This document shows, one piece after another, positions 40,352 through 63,449 of a DNA stretch of 64,000 bases. The position numbers and the translations under genes were made by a program. Origin of the DNA: an uncultured eubacterium 1-6 (GTDB lineage Bacteria; Bacillota; Clostridia; Lachnospirales; Lachnospiraceae); assembly GCA_903789595.1 (NCBI GenBank), contig CAIFEZ010000001.1, forward strand, positions 259,300-323,299, written 5' to 3'. Position 1 is the stretch's first letter. Each line of letters starts with the position of its first letter. The notes beneath the pieces were generated by a model that worked only from the letters and a program-made list of their open reading frames with translations, ran no database searches and was not told the origin of the DNA.

Positions 40352-40380
40352 TGCTGTAATTAAATATTGATCAGATTGGA

Positions 40381-40514
40381 TATTCGAAGCTCAGGCACTC
40401 GAAGCTCAGGCATTCGAAATTTAGGTATTAGAAGTTCAGGTATTCGAAGTTCAGATATACAAAGCTCAGATACTGGAAATTCAGATACTTTAAGTTCAGA
40501 TATTCGAGATATAC
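40381..40514. repeat. 15-bp tandem repeat, about 9 units
   Basis: tattcgaagctcagg-like units in perfect 15-bp register from 40381. Confidence 0.9.
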
Positions 40515-42398: not shown

Positions 42399-43631
42399 AT
42401 GATGAGGATTGGAAAAATATCAGAGGCGGTTCTCAACCGCTCTGTTTTGAAGGAGATCCGCTGCAGTGGATCTGATTTGATCAGCGGGCCGGCTGTTGGA
42501 GCAGATGCCTCTGTCCTGAGAGCGGAAGGAAATATCGTGGTTTCGTCTGCGGTTTCGCCTGACATTGACGCGGCCCCGGCAATCCGGACGATACTGGCGG
42601 TTCATTCGGCGGTGAATAACATTGCCGCTTCCGGCGGAGAGGGCCGTGCCATTGTCCTGAATCTTGTCCTTCCGGAAGATGATGAGGAAGCTGTCCTCAA
42701 GACCATTCTGCGTGCGGCGGAGAAAATTGCGGAAAGCCTCGGACTGAGCATTGCGGGAGGGCACACTACGGTAAGCTGCTCTGTGAGAAGTGAGATGATT
42801 TCCGTGACAGGAATCGGGGTCGCACGGGATCTCCGAAGGAAATCTGCCGGTGCATCACATACAGACGATAAAATATGTGAAGATCAGGGGACGGCAGGGC
42901 ATGCACTATCCCGGGACCTCCGAAATGATCGCTCTGTCCGGAATTGTTCGGAAAACGCGGATACGGCGGAGGTTCGGGCTTTGTCTGCTTCAGAGAGTGA
43001 ACATCCGGCGGAATCCGGGAAATCGTTCCGCAGCAGAGAGATCGTCATGACAAAATCGGCGGGAGCTGCAACAGCTATGCTGCTCGCCGCAGAGCGGGGG
43101 GAGATGCTCTCCCGCAGATTTACCCGCGATATCATCGGGGCGGCAAAGAAATTCAGAGACAGTCTTTCAATTGTACCGGAGGCTGAAATCGCGGGGGCAG
43201 ACCCGGGGACAACGCGGATGCATGATGTATCGGAGGGAGGCGTGTTCGGTGCGCTCTGGGAGATGGCAGAGGCGGAAGGCGCGGGACTGGAGATCAGTCT
43301 CCGGGAGATACCGATCCGTCAGGAAACCGTGGAAATCTGCGAGTTTTTTGATCTGAATCCGTATCAGAGCTACTCGGAGGGATCGCTTCTTATTCTCACC
43401 GAAAATGGAAGGGCATTGACAGAGAAGCTGGAAAACGCCGGGATCCCGGCGAGAATCATCGGAAGAACCACGCCCGCAAGAGACAGAATCCTGCACAATC
43501 AGGGTGAGATCCGTTACCTAGACAAACCACAGCAAGATGTACTGTATAAGCTCTACGAAAACGCAGGCAGGAACGACGCACGCGAAGCGCGCGAGAGAGA
43601 CTGCATGCGATTTCGAAGGCAACAGGTATGA
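42399..43631 (+). CDS. AIR synthase-related protein (HypE/PurM-like), C-terminus altered by repeat
   Basis: ATP-binding AIRS fold: VSSAVSPDIDAAPAIRTILAVHSAVNNIAASGG, GGHTTVSCSVRSEMISVTGIG, MHDVSEGGVFGALWEMAEA. Confidence 0.75.
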   Translation: MMRIGKISEAVLNRSVLKEIRCSGSDLISGPAVGADASVLRAEGNIVVSSAVSPDIDAAPAIRTILAVHSAVNNIAASGGEGRAIVLNLVLPEDDEEAVLKTILRAAEKIAESLGLSIAGGHTTVSCSVRSEMISVTGIGVARDLRRKSAGASHTDDKICEDQGTAGHALSRDLRNDRSVRNCSENADTAEVRALSASESEHPAESGKSFRSREIVMTKSAGAATAMLLAAERGEMLSRRFTRDIIGAAKKFRDSLSIVPEAEIAGADPGTTRMHDVSEGGVFGALWEMAEAEGAGLEISLREIPIRQETVEICEFFDLNPYQSYSEGSLLILTENGRALTEKLENAGIPARIIGRTTPARDRILHNQGEIRYLDKPQQDVLYKLYENAGRNDAREARERDCMRFRRQQV

Positions 43632-43640
43632 GCGTGAAGC
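43549..43640. repeat. 92-bp direct repeat copy 1 (overlaps end of AIRS-like CDS)
   Basis: agctctacgaaaacgcaggcaggaacgacgcacgcgaagcgcgcgag... identical to 43731-43822. Confidence 0.95.
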
Positions 43641-43730
43641 GGTGAGAAGCACCGCGAGAACGCTCATACCTGTAGCGGCGCGAGAGCACGGAGTGCGGAG
43701 CGGCGCGCAGCTTATACAGGACAAAAAGAG

Positions 43731-43822
43731 AGCTCTACGAAAACGCAGGCAGGAACGACGCACGCGAAGCGCGCGAGAGAGACTGCATGCGATTTCGAAG
43801 GCAACAGGTATGAGCGTGAAGC
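43731..43822. repeat. 92-bp direct repeat copy 2
   Basis: See 43549-43640. Confidence 0.95.
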
Positions 43823-52059: not shown

Positions 52060-52149
52060 AACGAGATCAAACGCGCTTCGCGGGTTTGATCTCGTTATCG
52101 CGACGCTCGCCCCGCACGAATACTTCGCATTCGGCTTAGGCTCGCTGTT
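52060..52149. repeat. Palindrome-containing direct repeat copy 1 (about 90 bp)
   Basis: aacgagatcaaac-gcgcttcgcgg-gtttgatctcgtt 13-bp perfect stem; copy 2 at 52155-52243. Confidence 0.92.
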
Positions 52150-52154
52150 AGTGT

Positions 52155-52243
52155 AACGAGATAAAACGCGCTTCGCGGGTTTGATCTCGTTATCGCAACG
52201 CTCGCCCGCACGAATACTTCGCATTCGGCTGTGGCTCGCTGTT
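52155..52243. repeat. Palindrome-containing direct repeat copy 2 (about 89 bp)
   Basis: Near-identical to 52060-52149. Confidence 0.92.
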
Positions 52244-52308
52244 CGCGTAAATAAACGGGCGTCAATCTGAATGATCAGATCGTCGTCCGTTTTTTCAGGA
52301 GAAAAGAC

Positions 52309-53691
52309 ATGGAATACAGGAAAAATGATACGGCGACGGCGGAGATCATTGACATCGGACAGGACGGTGCAGGAATCGGACGAACAGAAGATGGCTACAC
52401 TTTATTTGTCAAGGACACCGTACCGGGGGACAGGGCAGAAGTCCGGATCATCAAGGTCAAAAAGTCTTACGGGTACGGCAGACTTGAGAGAGTCCTGAAG
52501 GCTTCACCCGACAGAACCGAACCTCCGTGTCCTGTCTCGCGGCAATGCGGGGGCTGCCAGCTGCAGATGATGTCCTATCCGGCACAGCTGGCGATGAAAG
52601 AGGAGAAGGTCCGGAACGATCTGAAAAGAATCGGCGGTTTCGAAAATCTCGAAATCCGGAAAATTGTTCCGATGGAATCTCCGTTCCGTTATCGGAACAA
52701 GGCACAGTTCCCGGTCGGCACAGACAGGGACGGAAATCCTATCGCGGGATTTTACGCGGGCAGAACGCACACGATTATTCCCAATCCGGACTGCCTTCTC
52801 GGATGCCCGGAGAACCGGGAGATTCTGGAAGAAATACTTGGCTGGATGAGGGATAACCGGATTCCGGCATACAGCGAGGAAACCGGAAAGGGGCTGGTTC
52901 GTCATGTTCTGATCCGAAAGGGATTTGCAACCGGTGAAATCATCGTATGCCTGATTATCAACGGCGGCAGAATTCCCGCATCGGATGACCTCATCCATCG
53001 TCTGGAAAAAATCCCGGGAATGACCGGTATCACCTTCAGCAGCAATACGAGAAGGACAAATGTCATCATGAACGGGCCGGTGAAGCCGGTATGGGGACAA
53101 GAATACATCACGGACATTCTGAAATCCGCAGCGTTCGGTGTCAGCGTCCGTTATCAGATTTCGCCGGCTTCCTTCTACCAGATAAATCCGGTTCAGACAC
53201 AGCGCATCTATGAGAAGGTGCTGGAGCTGGCCTGCCTTCATGGGAATGAAACGGTCATGGACCTTTACTGCGGCATCGGAACCATTTCACTTTTTCTCGC
53301 CCGCAAGGCACGCAAAGTCATCGGAGTGGAAATTGTTCCGAGAGCAATTGAGGACGCGAGAAAAAATGCACAGATAAACGGGATAGAAAACGCGGAATTC
53401 TATGTCGGAAAGGCAGAGGAGGTTGTGCCAGGCCTTGAAAAAGAAGGAATCCGCGCCGATGTAGCGGTAGTAGACCCTCCGAGAAAGGGATGCGATGAAA
53501 AACTTCTGCAGACGCTGGTCCGCATGAAGCCGGAGCGAATCGTCTATGTAAGCTGCGATCCCGCGACACTGGCAAGGGATCTGAAGTATCTGTCCGGGAA
53601 CGGGTTTCATGCAGAGTATGTGCAGCCCTATGACCAGTTCAGCGAGACGGTTCACGTCGAGACGGTCGCTCTGCTAATGAGGACAAATTGA
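52309..53691 (+). CDS. rlmD: 23S rRNA (uracil-C5) methyltransferase RlmD/RumA family (paralog 2); its 3' end serves as att-like site
   Basis: CPVSRQCGGCQLQMMSYPAQLAMK, DLYCGIGTISLFLARKA, VDPPRKGCDE, YVSCDPATLARDL. Confidence 0.95.
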   Translation: MEYRKNDTATAEIIDIGQDGAGIGRTEDGYTLFVKDTVPGDRAEVRIIKVKKSYGYGRLERVLKASPDRTEPPCPVSRQCGGCQLQMMSYPAQLAMKEEKVRNDLKRIGGFENLEIRKIVPMESPFRYRNKAQFPVGTDRDGNPIAGFYAGRTHTIIPNPDCLLGCPENREILEEILGWMRDNRIPAYSEETGKGLVRHVLIRKGFATGEIIVCLIINGGRIPASDDLIHRLEKIPGMTGITFSSNTRRTNVIMNGPVKPVWGQEYITDILKSAAFGVSVRYQISPASFYQINPVQTQRIYEKVLELACLHGNETVMDLYCGIGTISLFLARKARKVIGVEIVPRAIEDARKNAQINGIENAEFYVGKAEEVVPGLEKEGIRADVAVVDPPRKGCDEKLLQTLVRMKPERIVYVSCDPATLARDLKYLSGNGFHAEYVQPYDQFSETVHVETVALLMRTN

Positions 53692-53930
53692 AAATGTGGC
53701 TATAAAGCCCGTGTTTAAGCCATTTCTGCGGCATCCGTCTTTCTGAAAAGAGAGGCGGGTGCCGCTTTTTCTGTCTGGGAAAATGTGAAAGTCGCTCTGG
53801 CGTGAATGTGGGAAGGCTATTTTGATGAATTTTTGCCGGGCGAGACTGTGGCTTTGCTATTTTGGGTAGGTTGTGACTGTGGAAAGGCTATTTTTCGGAA
53901 GTCGAGACTGTGGAAACGCTATTTGAGCCT
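53656..53930 (+). repeat. Island boundary repeat, copy 1: rlmD 3' end, terminator, four-site array
   Basis: Shares the same order of blocks with 58114-58318 and 63175-63449. Confidence 0.85.
53728..53772 (+). terminator. Rho-independent terminator downstream of rlmD (copy 1)
   Basis: gcggcatccgtctttc-tgaa-aagagaggcgggtgccgc-ttttt. Confidence 0.8.
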
Positions 53931-53954
53931 GCGGCAGATCGGTACCTTCATTCT

Positions 53955-54662
53955 TAGGAGAATCAATTTCAGCAGGGCAAAGTAAATGTGAACTACAATC
54001 GTTTCCTTGGTTATACAAGGGCGAGGATGGAAAGCTGGAGATCGTACCTGAAGAAGCGGAAGTAGTGAAAAGAATTTATCGTGAGTATCTGGAGGGCGGA
54101 AGCACCATCAGCATCGCGAACGCACTGGATCCTGAAAGGGGAGAAAGTACTTGTGTGGAGATGCAGATCACGTCTGCAGAATGGTAAAAAAAGTGGCTGC
54201 CTTTCCAGAACAATAAGAGAAGCGGATCTTCAGAAGGCTGTCGTCAAAGCGGTACAGGATCTGATCCTTGATGAGAACAGAATATACAACGACATATGCT
54301 CAGATGTGCAGGAATTGACCACAGGAAACACGGATATTGAACTTGCCGACATCAATTCCAAACTGGCTGAGCTTCAGCAGCACGTCCTTTCCCTGGTCAA
54401 AGCCGGAAAGAATACAACTGAGCTTGCTGAACAGATCCAGCAGCTCAGAGAAAGAAAAAACGAGATTGAGGCCACAAAGTCGGAACGGAAGCGTGACGAA
54501 GAACGGGTTGTTGCTTTGCGGGAATCCGTTGAGAAAGCAAAGGATAAGGTGCTCGCCTATGATGAGCAGCTGGTACGGAACTTTATCGAGGAGATCAGAG
54601 TATTTCCAGACAAGCTCACCATCACGGTAAAGGGCGGAGCTCATGAGGACATTACAATTTAA
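53955..54662 (+). pseudogene. Decayed large serine recombinase (N-terminal catalytic domain missing, frameshifted)
   Basis: Fragments ENQFQQGKVNVNYNRFLGYT, LEIVPEEAEVVKRIYREYLEGGSTISIANALD, RTIREADLQKAVVKAVQDLI plus coiled coil and FIEEIRVFPDKLTITVKGG. Confidence 0.8.
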
Positions 54663-55199: not shown

Positions 55200-55236
55200 G
55201 CAGCGGCAAAACGAAATATGATGGACACCATGATTG

Positions 55237-55273
55237 CGGAGCATTGACCTTATGGCTGGTGCTCCGATTTTTT
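55237..55273 (+). terminator. Rho-independent terminator
   Basis: cggagca...tgctccg followed by attttttc. Confidence 0.75.
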
Positions 55274-55300
55274 CTTGTGATGGAACCAAGCTTAGCAATA

Positions 55301-55350
55301 TTTTACAGCAACACACTGCACTCAACCCATAGCAAATTAGCGGTTTCAAT
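55301..55350. repeat. 50-bp direct repeat, left copy, flanking the MarR cassette
   Basis: ttttacagcaacacactgcactcaacccatagcaaattagcggtttcaat; 46/50 match to 57966-58015. Confidence 0.88.
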
Positions 55351-55392
55351 TTAAGATACAGAAACAAGTCGTAGACGTGAACAATAAAACGG

Positions 55393-57860: not shown

Positions 57861-57920
57861 CCCCGCTTGCGGAGGCTGTGAAGGAAATAATCAATCAATA
57901 AACAAATATAATGATTTTCG

Positions 57921-57958
57921 CGGAGCATTGACTGATACGCCGATGCTCCGATTTTTTT
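57921..57958 (+). terminator. Rho-independent terminator
   Basis: cggagcattgac...gatgctccg followed by attttttt. Confidence 0.8.
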
Positions 57959-57965
57959 ATTTGTA

Positions 57966-58080
57966 TTTTACAGCAATACACTGCACTCAACCCATAGCAA
58001 ATCAGAGGTTTCAACTGAAATTCACAGCAAACCATAGGTTTCAACTGGATTTTATAGCAATCCAACAGCCTCAACTACCC
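57966..58080. repeat. 50-bp direct repeat (right copy) extending into 30-bp-period repeats
   Basis: 57966-58015 matches 55301-55350; gtttcaact/gtttcaact/gcctcaact at 58008, 58038, 58068. Confidence 0.85.
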
Positions 58081-58113: not shown

Positions 58114-58318
58114 CACGTCGAGACAGTGGCTCTGCTAGTTCGCAACAATTAGAAAAGGGCCGGAAAAGCCCGAGCTTAAGCCATTTCTGCGGTGCCGGTC
58201 TTTCTGAAAAGAGAGGCCGGTGCCGCTTTTTCTGTCCGTGAAAATGTGAATATCGCTTTGACGTGACTGTGGAAAGGCTATTTTTCGGAAGTTGAGACTG
58301 TGGGAACGCTATTTGAGC
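58114..58318 (+). repeat. Island boundary repeat, copy 2 (array shortened to two sites)
   Basis: cacgtcgagacagtggctctgcta...tag then terminator then tgactgtggaaaggctattt / gagactgtgggaacgctattt. Confidence 0.85.
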
Positions 58319-58411
58319 CTGCGGCAGATCGGTACCTTCATTCTTAGGAGAATCAATTTCAGCAGGGCAAAGTAAATGTGAACTACAATAGATTCCTCGG
58401 ATATACAAAAG

Positions 58412-58828
58412 GTGAGGATGGAAAGGGTTCGCTTTTATAGGCGCCAGAAGGAAATCATAGTTTCCGGAAAGACACGCAAGATTGATTTGCTGTTCTACCA
58501 TATCAGGCTCCGCTGCTATGTAGTAGTCGAACTGAAAGTAGTATCGTTTGAGCCGGAATTTGCCGGGGAATTGAACTTTTATGTCAATGCGGTTGATGAG
58601 CTCATGAAAGGAGCAGATGATAATCCGACTATTGGACTCCTCATCTGCCGGGATAAAGACAGCACGGAAGTGAAATGGGCGTTCCGTGGTATTAACACGC
58701 CGATGGGAGTAGCGACATTCGATCATATTAGTATCAAGGGCATGGAGGATTATCTTCCTACGAATGAACAGATTCAAAAGCAGATAGAATTAGCAGAACA
58801 AGAGCTTCGTCATAACGAAGCTACGTAA
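58412..58828 (+). pseudogene. DUF1016 (YhcG-type PDDEXK nuclease) C-terminal fragment, fused behind a recombinase fragment
   Basis: IDLLFYHIRLRCYVVVELKVVSFEPEFAGELNFYVNAVDELMKGADDNPTIGLLIC; the N-terminal region expected for YhcG is absent. Confidence 0.8.
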
Positions 58829-62982: not shown

Positions 62983-63053
62983 AATATGTTCAAAATGAGT
63001 GTGGCACTCAGTTCTGAAACCTGTATAATTTCCAGTTTGTCACCTTGATTCCT

Positions 63054-63138
63054 TTAGATATGTTTCCTCATTTGATACTTGAGTTTTAGATATGTTTCCG
63101 CAAACAGAGGCGAATTTTTGACATGTTCCCGCAAACAG
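63054..63138. repeat. Three direct repeats of TTTAGATATGTTTCCGCAAACAG-like motif, 31-32 bp period
   Basis: ttagatatgtttcctca, tttagatatgtttccgcaaacag, tttgacatgttcccgcaaacag. Confidence 0.8.
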
Positions 63139-63174
63139 TCAGACAGCGTGATTATATTTTCCACTGTCTCGGGG

Positions 63175-63449
63175 CATGTGGAGACCGTGGCTCTGCTAAT
63201 TCGGCAGAACTAGAAAAGGGCCGGAAAAGCCCGTGTTTAAGCCGTTTCTGCGGCATCCGTCTTTCTGAAAAGAGAGGCCGGTGCCGCTTTTTCTTTTAGA
63301 AAAAATGTGAATATTGCTCTGGCGTGACTGTGGGAAGGCTATTTGTCTGAAATTTTGTCCGACGAGACTGTGGGTCTGCTATTTGAGGCAGGTTGTGACT
63401 GTGGAAAGGCTATTTTTCAGAGGTCGAGACTGTGGGAATGCTATTTAAG
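63175..63449 (+). repeat. Island boundary repeat, copy 3: rlmD 3' end-like, terminator, four-site array
   Basis: catgtggagaccgtggctctgctaattcggcagaactag then terminator 63250-63292 then sites at 63321-63449. Confidence 0.85.

Follow-up and report, generated by a model that had tools for sequence, protein, structure and literature searches.

A conserved left-arm repeat array of rlmD-inserted elements, probably a row of integrase half-sites

In this report, we describe a tandem repeat array that is real, conserved and located in the left arm of elements inserted at rlmD, as found in a 64,000-nucleotide stretch of an uncultured Lachnospiraceae genome (the window; feature coordinates are collected in Table 1). 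Our analysis indicates that the array is probably a row of integrase half-sites in the left arm of small, mostly non-autonomous insertions of the large serine recombinase (LSR) type, here called family X, which are chained behind rlmD. Binding of the array units by a recombinase is likely; because the serine integrases studied so far require no auxiliary DNA (PMC3783163), the array was unexpected and our confidence in its recombinase-binding role is moderate.

The left boundary common to all array blocks lies in the HVETV codons near the rlmD end, and the mobile left terminus of ~270 bp comprises the core, the last rlmD codons with their stop, a strong intrinsic terminator and then the array. 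In the window, rlmD ends in the element-type tail VETVALLMRTN-stop, and the gene of an element-free congener ends in VETVCLMSRI-stop; therefore, the window rlmD most likely bears a tail from the element inserted first, and this tail is probably an element-supplied replacement, not the native end. Insertion at the rlmD 3' end with replacement of the last codons of the gene is also what characterizes the rumA/rlmD serine-integrase elements. The blocks are separated by segments of 4.5, 5.1 and 11.2 kb, followed by a 7.4-kb decayed element, which carries RepA_N, ParA, ParB and an LSR without most of its catalytic domain, and then by a fourth block outside the window with four units (from C1:341121). 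Block fragments also lie on contigs C56 and C22. The rlmD locus is a tandem accretion of elements at one site. On contig C1, which stops 3.8 kb past the start of the fourth block, no native attR closing the far side of the chain was found, and junctions in Sharpea and Clostridium vitabionis were rejected as native attR sites, both being left ends of further elements with arrays of their own.

Table 1. Coordinates, strands and supporting evidence of features in the window
Feature	Position	Strand	Evidence
rlmD (23S rRNA m5U1939 methyltransferase)	52309..53691	+	TIGR00479, 443 bits
Copy 1 core: putative CA crossover region and P' half-site, GAGAC-N9-GCTAA type	53653..53680	+	Start of homology common to all blocks; half-site alignment, matrix
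Intrinsic terminator brought by the element's left end	53728..53772	+	-32.8 kcal/mol, z -8.2; kept in other taxa
Copy 1 array	53802..53924	+	Units 53802, 53842, 53873, 53904; alignment, half-site matrix, motif search, conservation
Decayed large serine recombinase remnant	53954..54662	+	tblastn, Pfam Zn_ribbon_recom
30-bp direct repeats preceding copy 2 core, right end of first element	57993..58052	+	Repeat and right-end comparison
Copy 2 core and P' half-site, first/second element boundary	58114..58141	+	Half-site alignment and matrix
Copy 2 array	58263..58314	+	Two units 58263, 58294; alignment and motif search
Short recombinase remnant 3' of copy 2 array	58345..58430	+	67% in tblastn (30 aa); 96% identity with copy 1 stretch
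Right-end array, second element; AGATATGTTTCCGCAAACAG-like units 31-32 bp apart	63049..63138	+	Right-end comparison
P half-site, right end of second element (GATTATATTTTCCACTGTCTCGGGGCA)	63150..63176	-	Half-site alignment and matrix
Copy 3 core and P' half-site	63175..63202	+	Half-site alignment and matrix
Copy 3 array	63324..63446	+	Units 63324, 63364, 63395, 63426; alignment, half-site matrix, motif search, conservation

Several other repeats were noted around the locus. Direct repeats at window 55236-55357 and 57920-58052, including a terminator-like hairpin, bracket the MarR/nitroreductase/hydrolase cargo of the first element, as if a nested right end lay there, and TATATCGGTGTCAGGCACCAACGT is found close to either end of the third element (window 63487; L027:10436-10460), as if around a further insertion. 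A tandem duplication of ~94 bp lies immediately upstream of rlmD (window 52060-52250), a 182-bp tandem duplication lies inside a coding region (window 43549-43822), and a run of 15-bp repeats is found at window 40376-40510.

The array motif, GWGACTGTGG-N4-GCTATTT, is present in four units each in copies 1 and 3 and in two units in copy 2. Searching the window for the pattern GWGACTGTGGNNNNGCTATTT with at most two mismatches gave 12 matches (0.02 expected from shuffles), which are the ten array units plus the copy 2 and copy 3 cores (58120, 63181). The unit spacing is 40/31/31 in both full window copies, as had been proposed for copy 3; for copy 1 the first interval is 40 rather than the proposed 39, and the original anchors lay a few bases away from the unit starts given in Table 1. 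Copy 2 is shorter by exactly 71 bp, the interval that separates units 0 and 2, and begins with a hybrid of these two units, which bears out the earlier suggestion of loss by recombination between units; unit loss of this kind is also seen in Sharpea. Across the whole genome, all 18 motif matches on this strand fall within array blocks, and a reversed control pattern gave none. Other identities for the array were rejected: an RNA function, since the array RNA is no more stably folded than shuffled sequence (z -0.5); DnaA boxes or iterons, since four variable bases sit within the would-be box; and promoter repeats, since the would-be -35/-10 spacing is too short as judged by eye.

The element/element junction forms a dyad, GATTATATTTTCCACTGTCTC-GGGG-CA-YGTN-GAGACNGTGG-N4-GCTAA, each half of which consists of GAGAC, nine bases and a distal motif, with GAGAC four bases from the CA in both halves. 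The attP sites of serine integrases consist of half-sites spanning ~25 bp around a 2-bp crossover (PMC3783163, PMC3556126); inverted half-sites around a 2-bp centre are visible here, the dyad around CA has the layout expected for such an attP, and crossover would presumably take place at this CA. A weight matrix built from 15 left-end half-sites, from which the array units were excluded, placed three cores and five array units at the top eight positions of the 64-kb window on both strands. The resemblance between the units and the rlmD end is therefore above chance, as the original prediction of degenerate copies of the rlmD 3' end implied; their origin appears to be a different one, in that the units copy the P' half-site, which overlaps the element-supplied tail. 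They repeat the P' half-site of their own element with an equal inner spacing of 9 bp, and because the CA dinucleotide and the inverted partner are missing, they are not full att sites.

The units are also conserved relative to the DNA between them. Among 37 units from 14 left ends, nucleotide diversity was 0.04-0.08 in the motif versus 0.26-0.40 in the spacers, the spacer value taking in diverged stretches beyond the last unit; in an ungapped comparison of the four complete arrays, it was 0.051 in the motif versus ~0.19 in the spacers (permutation p = 0.0006), and GCTATTT was invariant in 16 of 16 units. Another Lachnospiraceae genome (G350), C. vitabionis and Sharpea share a second left-end type, whose half-site is GAGAC-N9-GATGTC and whose array is made of GNGAC-N9-GATGTC-like units 27-28 bp apart (8 units versus 0.6 expected), with no excess of GCTA-type units. 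Array and own half-site thus switch together while keeping an equal inner spacing, the pattern predicted for recognition of both by a single protein, and this match within the second type is the strongest evidence suggesting that the units are half-site copies. Taken with the half-site motif and its conservation against drifting spacers, this joint switch supports the earlier proposal of a binding array for a recombinase or accessory factor. Against this proposal, the period differs between the element types (31 versus 27-28 bp), so there is no fixed helical phase.

Repeats occur at the right ends as well, where GAYATGTTYCC-like units lie at about -120, -89 and -58 and the att half-site begins near -27. 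Autocorrelation of right ends placed lag 31 at the top in every group (z 9.5, 6.4 and 5.6). The right-array units are alike among themselves but showed no significant match to the att half-site, so that their reading as degenerate P half-sites, which we tested, was unsupported.

The left terminus is followed by remnants of LSR genes in copies 1 and 2, C22, Eubacterium pyruvativorans and a Lachnospiraceae MAG, and by an LSR remnant of a different type in C. vitabionis. The longer remnant in the window has two in-frame stops and comprises only the middle and C-terminal part; for none of these elements was an intact cognate recombinase found, only truncated LSRs. We infer that an LSR moves these elements and suggest a model in which the attP of the element's circular form consists of two half-sites inverted around CA, ACTGTCTC-GGGG-CA-YGTN-GAGACNGTGG-N4-GCTAA. 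Exchange with a matching rlmD site would replace the last codons of the gene, for which the element would supply its own stop codon and terminator. Past the terminator, two to four extra half-sites, oriented as P' and 30-31 bp apart, would be bound by the same recombinase, acting in trans and once encoded directly 3' of the array. The bound array may raise the local recombinase concentration, influence the choice of synapsing sites or control the recombinase's own gene, and recruitment, synapsis control and own-gene control would leave the same trace in the sequence.

A scan of genome contigs with two adjacent units as the query, as the original prediction had called for in related genomes, returned five records, from Bilifractor porci, E. 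pyruvativorans, a Lachnospiraceae MAG, Sharpea azabuensis and C. vitabionis, with block DNA identities of ~78-95% among the carrier taxa. The family is rare: the right-end/core junction was present in 2 of 392 genomes sampled at the order level, related families of two other hosts yielded no further carriers, and plasmids and phages contained no block copy. One element of 5.26 kb, which has neither a left array nor a recombinase, is 97.5% identical in a Bilifractor genome, C. vitabionis and E. pyruvativorans (L052:12429-17691, L110:4562-9813 and L107:10628-15804) and ends exactly at rlmD-type cores; the left array is therefore dispensable for spread. Its cargo comprises TetR, two SIR2-like proteins (by eye), MarR and the radical SAM mobile pair A/B (TIGR04471/TIGR04470), and it may explain the 'mobile' label that NCBI gives to this pair. 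A ~1-kb element with a ParE-type toxin follows a family X left end with a truncated array and is 95% identical between B. porci and the Lachnospiraceae MAG (L053:9415-10210, L106:9133-9930), and an arsenic-resistance cassette with the second left-end type was found in two genomes (L116 in G350:C25; L110:613-3795). We advance only tentatively, and with more doubt than belief, the wider proposal that a class of LSRs employs arm-like tandem half-site arrays in the ends of its elements, against the rule that a minimal att site suffices for serine integrases, and would thereby mobilize tiny recombinase-less cassettes between bacterial orders into rlmD.

The absence of the array from a recombinase-less element that still spread, together with its position between the terminator and the recombinase remnants in several elements, would also agree with an operator array, that is, sites for a regulator (or for the recombinase as repressor only) in the promoter region of the lost recombinase gene, with no role in recombination. 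We regard this explanation as unlikely; a separate regulator would not explain the copying of att half-sites in two types with different half-sites.

Rather improbable, in our judgement, is the idea raised in the original prediction that the units are scars, each the core fragment left by one of repeated same-site insertions. The units do look like cores, they are lost by recombination in copy 2 and Sharpea, and on contig C56 (L029:1918-2130) the sequence switches, exactly where array unit 1 belongs (core +183), to another rlmD-type tail (VETVCLLSKLSETKN). Unit 1 of C56 thus appears to have been a recombination point once; because the CA dinucleotide is missing there, the fusion cannot be claimed as integrase-made. 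Scars are disfavoured because the 40/31/31 spacing and the motif persist in diverged copies and taxa while the spacers change; in addition, the second element type has a regular array of its own, and the units are without the CA crossover bases.

Movement by a DDE transposase of the Tn7/Mu-like kind, whose ends hold several transposase sites, would fit the repeated sites at both ends and the CA that closes the right end of the elements, and we consider it very unlikely: no such transposase was noticed among the element ORFs, the half-sites are symmetrical about a 2-bp centre as in LSRs, the last codons of the gene are replaced by the element, and LSR remnants occur. Similarly, a known IS terminus, named beforehand as an outcome that would overturn the binding reading, was not encountered, in that the array was not found beside a transposase gene with target duplications, no transposase is common to the array flanks, and the IS21-type element adjoining one MAG array is a separate insertion; the array is nonetheless part of a mobile-element terminus. 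That the array is a neutral, hitch-hiking repeat is hardly credible, since the motif is conserved against its spacers and tracks the half-site in two types, even if some left ends, recently mobile ones included, are missing it.

A row of integrase half-sites thus being the reading that we prefer, its interest lies in the use of serine integrases for genome engineering precisely because no auxiliary DNA is needed (PMC3783163). If some natural systems keep extra half-site arrays, the question becomes how these systems find partners, avoid wrong synapsis and control their own level, and the arrays may constitute a novel means of control or docking. In addition, family X ends bound small cassettes common to several genera (the radical SAM mobile pair, arsenic resistance, a toxin and transporters) and therefore offer a concrete route of gene exchange among gut Firmicutes and a means of delimiting such cassettes.

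Streptococcus ICEs and IMEs that use a single serine integrase and target rumA (rlmD) have been published (PMC4701971, PMC5704250), and family X appears to fit this class; the two are alike in the target gene end, the LSR type and the swap of the 3' part of the gene, and the LSR gene of the 7.4-kb decayed element runs into the att site like those of the published rumA ICEs. In contrast to them, family X elements are mostly 1-5 kb, lack recombinase or conjugation genes (the intact LSR of that class is represented by truncated LSRs only), have right ends free of coding sequence and carry a repeat array at each end; end arrays of this kind were not seen described in the consulted portions (PMC4701971, PMC5704250). 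CIMEs (PMC5704250) are likewise without integration genes, att-flanked and chained at one site, but family X has moved between orders in the form of discrete units, at 97.5% identity, and has arrays within its ends. As in CIMEs, integration and transfer genes are absent from the 5.26-kb and 1-kb elements, and att sites are present at both ends. SCC cassettes, which use ccr serine recombinases and target rlmH, similarly form stacks of LSR cassettes behind the gene of a 23S rRNA methyltransferase; family X differs in its target, rlmD and not rlmH, in its arrays and in its LSRs, which score far under the cut-offs of the ccr models (54-148 versus 700-900 bits), so that neither a ccr recombinase nor the rlmH target was found. 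Finally, repeated protein-binding sites offset from the crossover site are shared with the arm-type sites of tyrosine integrases and with multi-site transposon ends. The enzymes are other ones, and arm-type sites of tyrosine integrases usually differ from the core sites, whereas the left-array units of family X copy the core half-site.
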